Below, piece after piece: positions 5,969-63,866 of a DNA stretch of 64,000 bases (position 1 is its first letter; every line of letters begins with the position of its first letter). The position numbers were made by a program, and so were the translations under genes. Source of the stretch: Stereum hirsutum FP-91666 SS1 (taxonomy: Eukaryota > Basidiomycota > Agaricomycetes > Russulales > Stereaceae); the NCBI RefSeq assembly GCF_000264905.1, contig NW_006763149.1, positions 197,634-261,633 of the forward strand, read 5' to 3'. The notes beneath the pieces are model-generated. The model did not search any database. It worked only from the letters and a program-made list of their open reading frames with translations, and was not told where the DNA came from.

Positions 5969-6430
5969 TATATAAGGACTGCGGGGCCTACAGCTTTTCG
6001 ATATCCGGGTTTCCTCTCGACTCCCATCTTCTCCTCCCTCCCTTCCCCCTCTCCCTTTCCTATCCCGCCCTCCCTCAACTTTCTCTCCCGCTCCGTCACT
6101 CACCTCTCTTTAGGTCTCCCTCTAGCCTCCCTTCCTCGACTCTAGCGGCCACTGTTCACAACGGCCTTCGACATCAGGTACGTGTGGCGCAGTCACTGTT
6201 CGCCTCTTCCGCCACTGACACACCTTCTCCCATAGACCCTCAAGTCCAATGATCACCATCTACAACAACGCCACCACGTCTACCACCATCCTATCAATGT
6301 GCGTCCCTTCTACTCTACTATATAGTCGTTGTTGCTGACTCGCTGCCCGTCGCGTCATTCTCTCCCCACCGCCACCGCCGTCATGGATCACCGACGTGTC
6401 AAGACGTTTAGCACGAGCATGCTTGAAGGT
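5969..6430 (+). promoter_or_regulatory. putative promoter and spliced leader of the repeat-array transcript
   Basis: A TATATAAG box (5969-5976) is followed 55 nt later by a long CT-rich tract (about 6010-6120), the usual layout around fungal transcription starts. A good intron follows (GTACGTG at about 6179, CCCATAG at about 6236). A second donor (GTGCGTCCC) follows a short ATG frame beginning at about 6249, and an ATG at 6383 opens a 15-codon frame ending at another donor (about 6429). The set looks like a spliced leader with small upstream frames leading into the array. Confidence 0.4.
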
Positions 6431-6439
6431 GCGTTTTCT

Positions 6440-6710
6440 TTTTCGGTGCTTAGCTGGGCTGGGTATCTATGCTGGGGCTGGGGGCTGGGGGCTTGGGCTG
6501 GGGACTCTGGGCTGGGGACTCCGGGTGTTTTCAGGTCTCTGTGCTGGTTCTTGGGGTCTCTGGGCTGGGGCTCCTAGTGCTAGGGTGCCTGTGCTGGGTC
6601 TTGAGAGCTTAGCTGGGCTGGAAGTTCTGGGCTTAGAGTTCTATGCTCGGGTCTCTGTGCTGGATCTTGGGTCTCTGGGCTGGGTCTGTGGACCTGCTTA
6701 GGCTAGGCGA
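6440..6710 (+). repeat. G-rich tract with irregular GGGCTGGGG / GGGTCTCTGGG words
   Basis: About 270 nt of repeated GGGCTGGGG and GGTCTCTGGGCTGGG words lie just upstream of array unit 1. At 6474-6506 there are several runs of three to five G separated by two or three bases, which fits a G-quadruplex motif on the plus strand. Weaker versions of the same words recur before units 4 and 5 (about 7580-7670 and 7980-8090), so the tract belongs to the higher-order repeat. Confidence 0.55.
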
Positions 6711-6793
6711 CATCGACCTCACGAACGAGCTCAAGCACGACGAACTCACGAGCGAGATCAAGCACGACGACTTACCTCAAGAGCCTCAAGACC

Positions 6794-6940
6794 CCCCTGG
6801 GATAGCGTCGACCTTGCCGTGGTCCAGGGGCTCTATTACCCCAGAGTCCGATCCTCTGGGGGAAGCCAACAGACGCTACTAACAGGTGAGTGGATGGCTT
6901 CTTGTATAAACATACGTAAATTCTGACGCATCACCTACAG
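6794..6940 (+). repeat. array unit 1
   Basis: Hairpin 1 arms are at 6794-6800 and 6824-6830. Hairpin 2 arms are CCCCAGAG (6839-6846) and CTCTGGGG (6854-6861), with both arms altered together relative to other units. The intron is 6886-6940 (55 nt). One T is missing before the donor compared with the other units, which breaks the peptide frame. Confidence 0.75.
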
Positions 6941-7033
6941 TTTGTTTACAGGTGTGTGAGTGCGAGTAAGACGACCTCAAGTGCAAGACGCTCGACGCTC
7001 TGATCAGCGGCATCGTCGTCGTCAACCAAGCGA

Positions 7034-7179
7034 CCCCTGGGAAAGCGTCGACCTTGTCGTGGTCCAGGGGCTCTAGTACCTCAGAGTCCGATCCTCTGAG
7101 GGAAGCCAACAGACGTTTACTAACAGGTGAGTGCATTGACACTTTTGTCTACATATACCTTCTGACCCGTCCTTCATAG
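7034..7179 (+). repeat. array unit 2
   Basis: Hairpin 1 arms are at 7034-7040 and 7064-7070. Hairpin 2 arms are at 7079-7086 and 7094-7101. The intron is 7127-7179 (53 nt) with a CTGAC branch site, and a second acceptor follows at TTCAG. Confidence 0.75.
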
Positions 7180-7304
7180 TTTTACTTCAGATGTGCGAGT
7201 GTGACTGTGAGCAACCAGACTTAAAGTACAAGACGCTCGACGCCCTGATCACCGACATCATCGTCGCCAACCAAGCGACGACATTCCTCAAAAGCCTCAA
7301 GACT

Positions 7305-7456
7305 CCCCTGGGATAGCGTAGACCTTGCCGTGGTCCAGGGGCTCTAGTACCTCAGAGTCCGATCCTCTGAGGGAAGCCAACTGACGCTTACTAACAGGTG
7401 AGTGGGCTCACGCTTTGGTCCACATCCTTTGTTCAATCTGACCCGGTCTTGCGCAG
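7305..7456 (+). repeat. array unit 3
   Basis: Hairpin 1 arms are at 7305-7311 and 7335-7341. Hairpin 2 arms are at 7350-7357 and 7365-7372. The intron is 7398-7456 (59 nt), followed by a second acceptor. Confidence 0.75.
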
Positions 7457-7712
7457 TTTTATTTCAGGGGCGTGAGTGTACTTAAGCTCAAGATGATGGA
7501 CGCTCTGATTATCAACGCTCGGGCACGACGTTGAGTCTGGTCGACGACTCCAATCAAGCATGACAGGCGGCGGCCTCTGGGGCACCTTTGGCTGCGTCTT
7601 TGTCTCTAGGTTGCTGAGTCTTGTGGATCTCCTTTCTAGGCTGCTGGGCAGGGGTTGGTCTTGTCAGAGCTGAGCAACATCGCCACCGGGCTCCAAGTGC
7701 GTCAAGGCCGGC

Positions 7713-7860
7713 CCCCTGGGAGAGCGTCGACCTTGTCGTGGCCCAGGGGCTTAGTACCTCTTCGGAGGGAAGCCAACAGACGTTCGCGTGATAGTTACAC
7801 TGACCGGTGAGTCCCTCCCGCTTTCTTCCACCTACATTTCTTCTGACCCACCCTGTGTAG
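7713..7860 (+). repeat. array unit 4, with hairpin 2 shortened to a UUCG tetraloop
   Basis: Hairpin 1 arms are at 7713-7719 and 7743-7749. Hairpin 2 has lost 11 nt but re-forms as CCTC-TTCG-GAGG (7757-7768). The intron is 7807-7860 (54 nt) with CTGAC. Confidence 0.7.
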
Positions 7861-8173
7861 TTTTACTGTAGATGCGTGAGTGTGGTAAGCTCAAGACGAT
7901 CGACGCCCTGGTCGTCAACACTCGGGCACGACGACGAGTCCGGTCGACAACTCCAATCAAGCACGACATCAAGACTAGGCGGCAGTTTCTGGGGCATCTA
8001 AGGCTTGGTCTGCTGGGTCTCTGAGGCGTCTTGGTCTGGGTCTGCTCGTTCTCTTGGGTGTGGCCTTTATGTCGCTGGGCTTGGGCAAGTCTTGCTAAAG
8101 CTACGCGACTTCGACCTCTCGAACGAGATCAAACACGACGTCGACACCGGGCTCCAACAGCGCCAAAACCGGT

Positions 8174-8319
8174 CCCCTGGGAGAGCGTCGACCTTGTCGT
8201 GGTCCAGGGGCTCTAGTACCTCGGAGTCCGATCCTCTGAGGGAAGCCAATAGACGCTTACTAACATGTGAGTGGAACGGCAGGTCTTCTATGCGCGTACG
8301 CCTTCTGATGCACCTGCAG
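8174..8319 (+). repeat. array unit 5
   Basis: Hairpin 1 arms are at 8174-8180 and 8204-8210. Hairpin 2 arms are CCTCGGAG (8219-8226) and CTCTGAGG (8234-8241), paired with one G-U wobble. The intron is 8267-8319 (53 nt). Confidence 0.75.
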
Positions 8320-8449
8320 CTTTCTTCAGAGTTACCCGAGACGACCGACGGCCTAATAAATATCGACATCGACATTAAATATGGAGGTATAGCTTGTCCA
8401 ACGACATCGATACCGGATCCCCTCGACGAAGGCATCCCCTTGGCTTAAC

Positions 8450-9165
8450 TTAATATTCTCTGGTTATGTCTTCGTCCATCCGATCTCTGCTGACTCTCGC
8501 CTCTAATCTTGGTTTTGGCCCCGCCGGTTTGCTGAGCACCCATATTGTACCCATACATATTCTAATGAGACCCGATCCTAGTGCCGACAGATTTGGCCCA
8601 AATATTGGCAGTATTACACCCCAATATGGACGAGATTAGGTGGTCAACATTGAGGCCCTATCCTTGATAACTGGCTGACTTGGACCAGCTATTTGGGGCC
8701 AAAGGGCGATATATATAGCTAAAACATGGATACCGGACTATCTCTTAGACTGAAGACACAGGCCGATAGTGATATGGGTTAAAAAGACCTTGCAGCTGCA
8801 AAAGTCCTGGTGCCCCGGACGCGCTTCTCACGCTAGCGGAGGTCGCATCCTGGCAAAGTGGACGGAATTATTTTAAATTTCGGGGGCCTATCCCAACCAT
8901 ATCCTCGTGCGGACGGAAAGAACACCAAGGTCCGAGTCGTGTGGATGGAAAGGCCCATAATCTTGGGTCTCGGAGCGGACTTCTATCCTCATAGATATTA
9001 CCTGCCTACTGGCCCTTAATATCCCTCGAGCCTCTCGGCCTGGTAGCCCTTTGTGTCTGGCCTCGCTCAAGCTAGGCTGCGCAAACCTCCGGCAATAATT
9101 CAAGCGCAACCTAGGGAAACCGATATCGATGTGCAAGTATCATTCATACCTGAATCCGATAATCG
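8450..9165. other. no gene seen between array units 5 and 6
   Basis: An insertion-like stretch separates units 5 and 6. It contains an imperfect inverted repeat (8592-8608 against 8685-8703, TTTGGCCC..AAATA) and a TATATATAG word near 8710. Minus-strand frames here have no family resemblance. Confidence 0.35.
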
Positions 9166-9335
9166 ATGGTCCTCAAGAGCCTCAAGTCTCCCCTGGGATA
9201 GCGTCGACCTTGTCGTGGTCCAGGGGCTCTAGTACCTCAGAGCTTTGTCTTTTGAGGGAAGCCAACAGACGCTTATTGGCCGATAAGTAATGAAGCCCAT
9301 ATCGTCCCCATACGTGTGCTAACCATCCTCTACAG
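9166..9335 (+). repeat. array unit 6 (detached, more diverged)
   Basis: It begins with the same lead-in as units 1 and 3 (CCTCAAGAGCCTCAAG). Hairpin 1 is intact (9190-9196 and 9220-9226). The hairpin 2 right arm is TTTTGAGG, still pairing through A-U and G-U. The donor is weakened to GTAATG, and the intron (9287-9335) keeps a CTAAC branch site. Confidence 0.65.
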
Positions 9336-9584
9336 CCTCTTTAGACAAAGGAATAAGTGCCAGATGCTTGGTAGCTACTTAACCTGATGGCAATTGACGG
9401 TCTTTGTCCCGAGGGCGTGTCGCTTCTTATGCTGGAATCTTCGTGCCTGAGTCCATGTGGTGGCCCTGCCTTGAGCCACATACTGGATTTGCTATGCTTT
9501 CCTTTGGCGTGTTTTTCTCGATATTAAATACACTGCGATTCTGAAGCGTCAACTTTCCAGACGCGGTGTTCGTGGCACTGGATA

Positions 9585-9981
9585 CAGTTGATATGCTCAT
9601 ACGGCATACGGTCGGGGCGGGCCGCCGTTTATGCCGTATGAGAAATTATGCCGTATGAGGAATAGATAAGATGGGCACGAATCCAGTCCTTTTCACTTCC
9701 TCAGGATAAATAATGCACATATAAGATCTGTGGGGCAAAATAAAGTGTGACATATGGGAGAGTCTCTCCTTGCGGTGTTTTCTCTTACAATGTGATAGCA
9801 TGAGACCTTCAGCAAATCTGAAAATGCGGGATTCTTGAAGTGGCACTCCAAGGTGTGGGCCACCTGATGTCGAGGCCTGATTGAGATTAGATTTGACCGA
9901 TTTATGCCATATGAGCGTAATTGACGTAAAAATGTAATATTTTATGCCGTATGGGCGTATGCCGTATGAGCGTATCGACTG
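9585..9981. mobile_element. MITE, Tc1/mariner-pogo type, TA target duplication
   Basis: A 397-bp element is bounded by TA on each side. Its terminal inverted repeats begin CAGTTGATATGCTCATACGG at the left and CAGTCGATACGCTCATACGG read inward from the right, with two mismatches in 26 bp. Extra copies of TATGCCGTATGAG lie just inside both ends, as expected for transposase-binding subterminal repeats. There is no transposase-like frame, so it would depend on an element elsewhere. Confidence 0.7.
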
Positions 9982-52342: not shown

Positions 52343-52548
52343 GAGTGGTGGGTGTCAGGTGCAAGGGATTGACTGCCGCGATTCTGTGTTTCGAGAGAAT
52401 ATGAAAAACATCGGCCGGAAGCTGTTCTATGAAGCCAAACACAATGGAGTGTCACGCAACCTGCCTCCTGACTAATCACTTCACCTAACTTCGGCGTTTA
52501 TATCACAAAACTGTGATAAAAAGCAATTGGCTACCACTACTGGCTACG
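52343..52548. other. short spacer; promoter region of the Cys-rich gene
   Basis: No gene seen. A short inverted repeat TATCACA-AAACTG-TGTGATA-like (TATCACAAAACTGTGATA) lies at 52501-52518, upstream of the tRNA-Gly 3' end. Confidence 0.3.
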
Positions 52549-63400: not shown

Positions 63401-63866
63401 ACGCGATCTCGAAAGGATCCGTCTCCAACAACAGCGCGAGGAAGAGGCAGAAGCTCGTCGTGCCGCCCGTCGTGCCGAACAGTCGCGCCCTTCCCCTGCC
63501 GCTGCCGCCCCCGTCGCCGCCTCTCCCGTCGTTGGTGAGAGCGCATGGAGACGTTCCGCCGCCACATCCACCACCACGGCGCCATCGACTCCCATTCGCG
63601 CTGCTGCTGCAACCCCACCTCGTCCGGAAAGCCCTGCGGCTACCGGTCCTCCGAAATTCCGTGCAGCTGGTGCTGGTGGCGGCGGTGGATGGAGATCAAG
63701 AGAGCAGGCTAAGCTTTCAGGTGGTGGCACCGCTCCTGCGTCGCCCACAAGCGCTGGTCGTCCAGCTTCGCCTGCTCCTGCTAAGGAGGAGCCGGCGAAA
63801 GACGACGACGGGTTCACGCCTGCTAAGCCCGTCTGGAGGCCTTCGAGACTGCGGGGGAAGCAGTAA
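60466..63866 (+). CDS. TIF32: translation initiation factor eIF3 subunit a
   Basis: Five exons (60466-61002, 61131-61709, 61767-62642, 62714-63209, 63274-63866) join exactly to 1,026 residues, normal for fungi. The N-terminal helical PCI region begins with [18 protein letters not shown], then [18 protein letters not shown] and [21 protein letters not shown] long charged spectrin-like coiled coil follows ([16 protein letters not shown]) with [18 protein letters not shown], and an Ala/Pro-rich tail with [16 protein letters not shown]. It is the scaffold of eIF3 on the 40S subunit, binding eIF3b, c and mRNA. Antisense frames over the coiled coil are composition shadows. Confidence 0.96.

Follow-up and report, generated by a model that had tools for sequence, protein, structure and literature searches.

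What kind of gene, if any, is built from six tandem copies of one small module, each with two hairpins and an intron behind them? The question is raised by an array in the genome of Stereum hirsutum FP-91666 SS1 (46.0 Mb), lying in a window (the whole stretch of 64,000 nucleotides that was analysed) at positions 197634-261633 of contig C19. The original prediction took the array for a modular spliced non-coding RNA or a new structured repeat, shaped by selection on RNA structure and belonging to no described RNA family. All six copies were found at the positions given, with GTGAGT donors at the five places named (Table 1) and with a branch site and two acceptors 9-11 nt apart in each of the six units. 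The sixth donor, given as GTAATG, is present but weak, and ATAAGT is an alternative to it. The arms of hairpin 1 (CCCCTGG/CCAGGGG) have the same sequence in all six window units, and inspection of the sequence bears out the double compensatory change described in hairpin 2. Three features had escaped notice: hairpin 2 is short in unit 4 (CCTC-TTCG-GAGG) and long in the other five window units; a pseudoknot is formed between the 3' box and the loop of hairpin 1; and the genome contains about 100 copies of the unit.

Both predicted hairpins exist and correspond to helices P1 and P4; they are not separate, as the pseudoknot joins them. The sequence AGCGTC, in the 5' bulge or loop of hairpin 1, is complementary to GACGCT directly after the GAAGCCAAC box, and this helix is P2. 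With P2 included, the strand order is P1 P2 P3 P3' P1' P4 P4' P2', as in the HDV ribozyme, which is a nested double pseudoknot. In ribozyme 1, the helices are CCCCTGG/CCAGGGG (P1), AGCGTC/GACGCT (P2) and ACC/GGT (P3). The claim that no described RNA family has this layout therefore falls, because the strand order, the pairing, an invariant cytosine and a loop-E motif are those of the fungal HDV-variant self-cleaving ribozyme as set out in the main text of PMC5640933. What stands of the predicted modular RNA is that the units are structured, exon-like, equipped with predicted mini-introns and probably non-coding, while the kind of RNA is a known one.

Table 1. Predicted features of the ribozyme array, in window coordinates
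Feature	Position	Strand	Details
TATA box TATATAAG (predicted promoter)	5969..5976	+	~0.8 kb before first ribozyme
HDV-like ribozyme 1	6794..6877	+	predicted cleavage 6793/6794; long P4
Predicted intron 1	6886..6951	+	GTGAGT; acceptors end 6940 and 6951
HDV-like ribozyme 2	7034..7117	+	predicted cleavage 7033/7034; long P4
Predicted intron 2	7127..7190	+	GTGAGT; acceptors end 7179 and 7190
HDV-like ribozyme 3	7305..7388	+	predicted cleavage 7304/7305; sixth P2 pair A.G
Predicted intron 3	7398..7467	+	GTGAGT; acceptors end 7456 and 7467
HDV-like ribozyme 4	7713..7784	+	predicted cleavage 7712/7713; short P4, UUCG loop
Predicted intron 4	7807..7871	+	GTGAGT; acceptors end 7860 and 7871
HDV-like ribozyme 5	8174..8257	+	predicted cleavage 8173/8174
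Predicted intron 5	8267..8329	+	GTGAGT; acceptors end 8319 and 8329
HDV-like ribozyme 6	9190..9273	+	predicted cleavage 9189/9190; P4 partly A-U and G-U pairs
Weak predicted intron 6	9283..9344	+	ATAAGT 9283 or GTAATG 9287; acceptors end 9335 and 9344

Because six window units are thin evidence by themselves, the case rests on 109 units, whose covariation exceeds that of shuffled and slid controls. Searched at the DNA level with a 690-nt query spanning the first three ribozymes, the genome gave 101 matches, and nhmmer, started from the six units, found 114 hits in 13 loci and the window. Four hits with missing anchors were dropped, leaving 110 extracted cores, and one with an insertion in L3 was also dropped, leaving 109 segmented units; since all were gathered through ribozyme anchors, the sample favours intact copies. 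They form 12 arrays of 2-14 units, each array uniform in orientation, plus one solitary copy. Six of the units belong to class B, marked by P3 GGCC/GGCC and L3 TCTYCG, and 103 to class A. The ribozymes are 84 nt (53 units), 73 nt (32), 72 nt (16) or 83 nt (6) long, with lengths of 80 and 75 nt also present. The 110 cores were used to build a covariance model, which gave 126 matches in 212 kb and seven in five further loci, 129 of these 133 scoring above 50 bits, although matches to the 110 model-building sequences arise by construction. The genome count is a lower bound, as several matching places were left out of the model search.

Class B queries found more copies on contigs C1, C3, C7, C8, C16 and C22. 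Class B units were seen at L028:1385-2505, L029:1537-2136, L030:1270-1522 and in L031-L039; on C7 and C8 they form tandem repeats about 510-530 nt apart, and elsewhere pairs and solitary copies. The copy in L031 carries a hairpin-like insert of about 30 nt in J1/2, and other copies have different P4 stems. Arrays at L016:2973-5818 and L020:3626-6629 mix both classes and so link them, the class B units standing in the first two positions and, in L020, in the last as well. Two large arrays, at G000:C10:1254217-1258969 (+) and 1293998-1299830 (-), lie about 40 kb apart in inverted orientation and have a common upstream flank with 84% identity. The order of unit types recurs, by eye, between L013, L015, L017, L018 and L019, and we therefore took these loci as paralogues.

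Across the 109 units, P2 is paired in 641 of 654 cells. In 5000 shuffles, which ignore the relatedness of the copies, the mean was 625.3 (SD 1.45, maximum 632); with the partner slid, a control that allows for relatedness, only 140-211 cells paired. Among the 98 distinct cores, P2 pairs in 576 cells, the shuffled maximum being 566. Compensatory forms of this helix are AGCGTC/GACGCT, GGCGTT/AACGCC, GGTGTC/GACACC and GACGTC/GACGTC, and a further form, TGCGTC/GACGCA, occurs in the solitary copy L032. Variation of the same sort is found in the other helices: P1 pair 6 is G-C in 87 units, T-A in 18, G-T in three and A-T in one; P3 pair 1 is A-T in 101 and G-C in six; and the P1.1 contact, which pairs in 108 of 109 units, is G-C in 102 and T-A in six. 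In a MAFFT alignment, 97.0% of cells were paired versus 95.1 in shuffles, a count that includes 17 failing cells at P1 pair 6 because one group of rows was shifted by one column; segmentation counts this pair as formed in 109/109. Of the 24 pairs, 11 have changes on both sides, compared with a shuffled mean of 4.4; the cells with such changes number 52, against 11.8 after shuffling, and none of 500 shuffles was as high. By their covariation, the six window units are identified, at the level of sequence, as HDV-like ribozymes sharing a nested double-pseudoknot fold.

The unpaired positions fit the same fold. In J4/2, one position is C in all 109 units, with neighbours that vary (G89/A20; C73/T36), and the C-N is followed by AA in 107; we take C followed by N-A-A to be the catalytic cytosine position of the HDV-like class. 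The nucleotide preceding the predicted cut is T in 90 units, C in 11, A in eight and G in none, and ribozymes of this class disfavour a G just before the cut. The pair at the cleavage site is C-G in 105 of 109 units, and AGTA...GAA, the loop-E motif, stands at the base of P4 in 100. When P2 is read as 6 bp, one extra nucleotide, G in 109/109, lies between P2 and P3; under a 5-bp reading, 96/109 units have C at the position that follows, and the register is ambiguous. P1 has seven of seven pairs in 100 units, P2 at least five of six in 108, P3 three of three in 107, and P4 at least 4 bp in 105. Every feature of the fold was found in 94 units; the other 15, window unit 4 among them, depart in at least one, and some of these may be decayed. 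A form of the original reading, in which the units are exons of a structured long non-coding RNA and the fold would be a non-catalytic scaffold for protein binding, accords with the conserved structure and the exon-like borders. It does not account for the retention of catalytic features (the cytosine, the AA, P1.1 and the avoidance of G before the cut), and we regard it as very improbable.

A nearly sequence-free structural descriptor, which fixes only C-N-A-A and the pairing, recovered five of the six window units plus one extra site at 63640; since it gave 11 matches in 10 shuffled windows, about one match per window is expected by chance. Ribozyme 4 has one broken P3 pair (A.C) and was therefore missed by the strict descriptor. 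In the array loci, descriptor matches are confined to the strand of the array. Comparison with Rfam, suggested in the original prediction, detected no ribozyme at E<=10 within the array and none in the solitary copy L021; the HDV_ribozyme model RF00094 had no match in the genome at E<=1 (86 of 1055 candidates scored), and no Rfam hammerhead matched in the array region. The only Rfam match in the array, a CRISPR repeat with E 3.2, was below its gathering score and was discarded. Six exact pattern matches in viral contigs were ascribed to chance, none having P1 by eye, and single descriptor matches in L023 and L027 were set aside as lying away from the pattern matches in unrelated sequence.

Could the repeats instead be exons of a protein gene? 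An annotated model of 173 aa, STEHIDRAFT_152761, overlies the array on C2, and one frame runs through the ribozyme with no stop in 87 of the 109 units, which is the best point for coding, yet a weak one because the units are related. In that model, however, the same 3' box appears as KPTDAR, SQQTL and EANRR, and so in three frames. In 39 of 109 units, the difference in length from the 84-nt ribozyme is not divisible by 3, and in-frame stops occur in 22, 70 and 89 of 109 units in the three frames. The original prediction had allowed for exons of a known protein gene; the sole database protein matched (one of 25 candidates, E<=0.01) was STEHIDRAFT_152761 itself, with its inconsistent frames. For a gene of the window, the best hits bearing a species name likewise come from Russulales. 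As no single frame is kept across the repeats, we rejected the protein-coding reading and give it almost no credence. A tRNA or tRNA-derived SINE, to which a T-loop-like hairpin 2 could point, was likewise rejected: ARAGORN finds only a tRNA-Gly at 52548 in the window, and the short-form units are without that loop.

The ribozymes are closely followed by predicted splice sites. A donor-like hexamer lies within 40 nt after the ribozyme in 99 of 109 units (94 with GT), compared with 12.5% of random positions in the same loci; the distance is 6 nt in 49 units, 9 nt in 28 and 8 nt in 13. Such a site is present in 97 of 103 class A units, usually 6-9 nt on, but in only 2 of 6 class B units and, within the same 40 nt, in 6 of 18 units at further class B loci, so the coupling of ribozyme and intron is a class A feature. 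A branch site and AG follow 80 of 100 donors in the arrays; among 384 control donors from outside them, 43 are so followed. In 72 of the 80 introns there is a second AG, most often 11-12 nt past the first (for example, 6940/6951 in the window). At the ends of long-form units, such as window 7118-7126, TACTAACAG abuts the donor and looks like a branch site and AG touching the 5' splice site.

Upstream of the first ribozyme, TATATAAG occurs in 9 of 12 arrays, in shared contexts. One context, TTTCTGTATATAAGGACTGCGG, is common to the window and L009, and another, GGTATATAAG followed by a GCCCC-type run, to L013, L015, L017 and L019. With both strands counted, the window holds four occurrences of TATATAAG, including those at 76 and 4856; the one in Table 1 was singled out for its context, the 22-mer TTTCTGTATATAAGGACTGCGG, which L009 has unchanged and L010 nearly so. 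Locus L011 has TATAAAAG only and no TATATAAG, and the upstream DNA retrieved for L012 and L018 (the latter locus partly masked) has no TATA-type box. A conserved leader with short intron-like pieces was seen by eye in four loci. It lies between the TATA box and the first ribozyme (L013:1539-3125, and the same stretch in L015, L017 and L019), and its many short pieces, in which AG abuts GT, are possible recursive splice points. In the window, a G-rich CTGGGCTGGGG-type repeat at 6450-6700 separates leader from first unit, similar text reappears between units (for example, 7560-7660 and 7970-8090), and a short ATACGGCATACG/GCCGTATGAG-type repeat is present several times downstream of the array at 9580-9980, all by eye. 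From sequence, then, TATA promoters and introns are predicted for the arrays; in class A, the distance from ribozyme to donor is usually 6-9 nt.

Since the repeats covary as an HDV-type nested pseudoknot, an RNA transcribed from the array is likely to be self-cutting wherever a repeat is intact. We consider it probable that the six HDV-like ribozymes cut their own transcript 5' of each CCCCTGG, releasing short RNAs. In this process, a Pol II-like, non-coding transcript would be made from the predicted TATA promoter and spliced, and it would be cleaved during transcription just 5' of each intact ribozyme. Each piece would then begin with a ribozyme bearing a 5'-OH, continue across the spliced linker and finish, where the following cut falls, with a 2',3'-cyclic phosphate; with such ends, tRNA ligase could circularise it. 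As the donor emerges right behind the ribozyme, cutting and splicing could compete, and this competition may tune how much precursor survives whole. A bolder reading, which we hold only tentatively and think somewhat less probable than its opposite, is that the arrays are genes of a new kind, ribozyme operons that are driven by a promoter, spliced and self-dicing. Their main-class exons would end in an HDV-like ribozyme beside the donor, so that one transcript would yield different small, possibly circular RNAs under the opposing actions of splicing and self-cleavage. Given that so many ribozymes follow one another after a single predicted promoter, they might instead limit transcription, terminating or destroying the nascent transcript and leaving no products. 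A pure shredder would not need the linker and intron types that recur among arrays (by eye), and no served gene was identified in the partly annotated flanks; such a device seems to us distinctly improbable.

A different origin would make the arrays mostly inert, as tandem remnants of a non-autonomous, retrozyme-like or SINE-like retroelement whose RNA ends were set by the ribozyme. HDV-like ribozymes elsewhere do belong to retroelements, according to the parts cited of PMC4035085 and PMC3774820, and on C1, C3, C7, C8 and C22 of Stereum there are also single ribozymes, pairs, and short tandems with a spacing of about 510-530 nt. Against such an origin, no Pfam reverse transcriptase was found in the 10 window ORFs and 10 locus ORFs scanned, and what several arrays have in common is promoter-like DNA upstream and the order of their units, with no element ends seen. 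The ribozymes are also better conserved (majority fraction 0.951) than the preceding 40 nt (0.707) or the intron (0.725) in 32 units, which were chosen by ribozyme anchors. We therefore judge a retroelement origin unlikely, and self-cutting arrays that release short RNAs are the reading we retain.

Some units carry a sequence that could interfere with folding. In 16 of 109 units, the upstream DNA holds a 10-nt stretch complementary to the P2 strand. In 14 of them this stretch begins 42 nt ahead of the predicted cut and reads TCGACGCTCT (for example, L011:3934-3943); complementary over all 10 nt to the 5' strand region of P2, it could mask that region. Complementarity of at least 8 nt is present in 30 of 109, the shuffled mean longest being 4.8 nt. 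As a general mechanism, an anti-P2 switch was rejected as too patchy across units.

Most genomic HDV-like ribozymes have, to our knowledge, no clear job; that of the R2 retrotransposon sits at the 5' end of an element encoding its own reverse transcriptase. Here, one genome of a culturable wood-decay fungus holds well over 100 copies, mostly exon-like units behind predicted promoters. If this reading is true, the purpose of genomic self-cleaving ribozymes becomes directly testable. The arrays are also a natural case of ribozymes adjoining predicted splice sites, and they add a clade that Rfam's HDV model (RF00094) does not detect. The kind of ribozyme is already known, and tandem ribozyme-exon arrays of such size appear to be new: the titles and abstract starts brought up by searches of open-licence literature included no tandem HDV-like ribozyme exons and no paper on Stereum hirsutum with a ribozyme.

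The closest relatives are the fungal HDV variants of Li & Breaker 2017 (PMC5640933), whose main text reports 230 representatives from 26 species with widely variable gene associations, names as hallmarks a C-G at the cleavage site, a loop-E motif in P4 and an extra P2-P3 nucleotide, mostly C, and describes cleavage by bimolecular constructs of two variants. The Stereum units resemble them in the nested double pseudoknot and in all three hallmarks, with AGTA/GAA as loop E, and differ from them, as described there, in forming exon-like units with up to 14 per array; the words "tandem" and "Stereum" are absent from that main text. Retrozymes of plants and animals, as presented in the parts cited of PMC7761336 and PMC4918200, consist, as the Stereum arrays probably do, of tandem self-cleaving ribozymes that free monomer RNAs, and in retrozymes these monomers circularise. 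Retrozymes are hammerheads, whereas the Stereum ribozymes have an HDV-like fold, and their arrays have many diverged units, predicted TATA promoters and a predicted intron after most units of class A. The HDV-like fold is shared with the R2 retrotransposon ribozyme, which cleaves a co-transcript at the 5' border of the element (PMC3774820, in the part cited). It is shared, too, with the motifs of L1Tc/ingi and SIDER2, the latter bearing two Pr77 motifs in tandem; these lie at the 5' ends of trypanosomatid retroelements, with at most two in tandem described in the cited part of PMC4035085.
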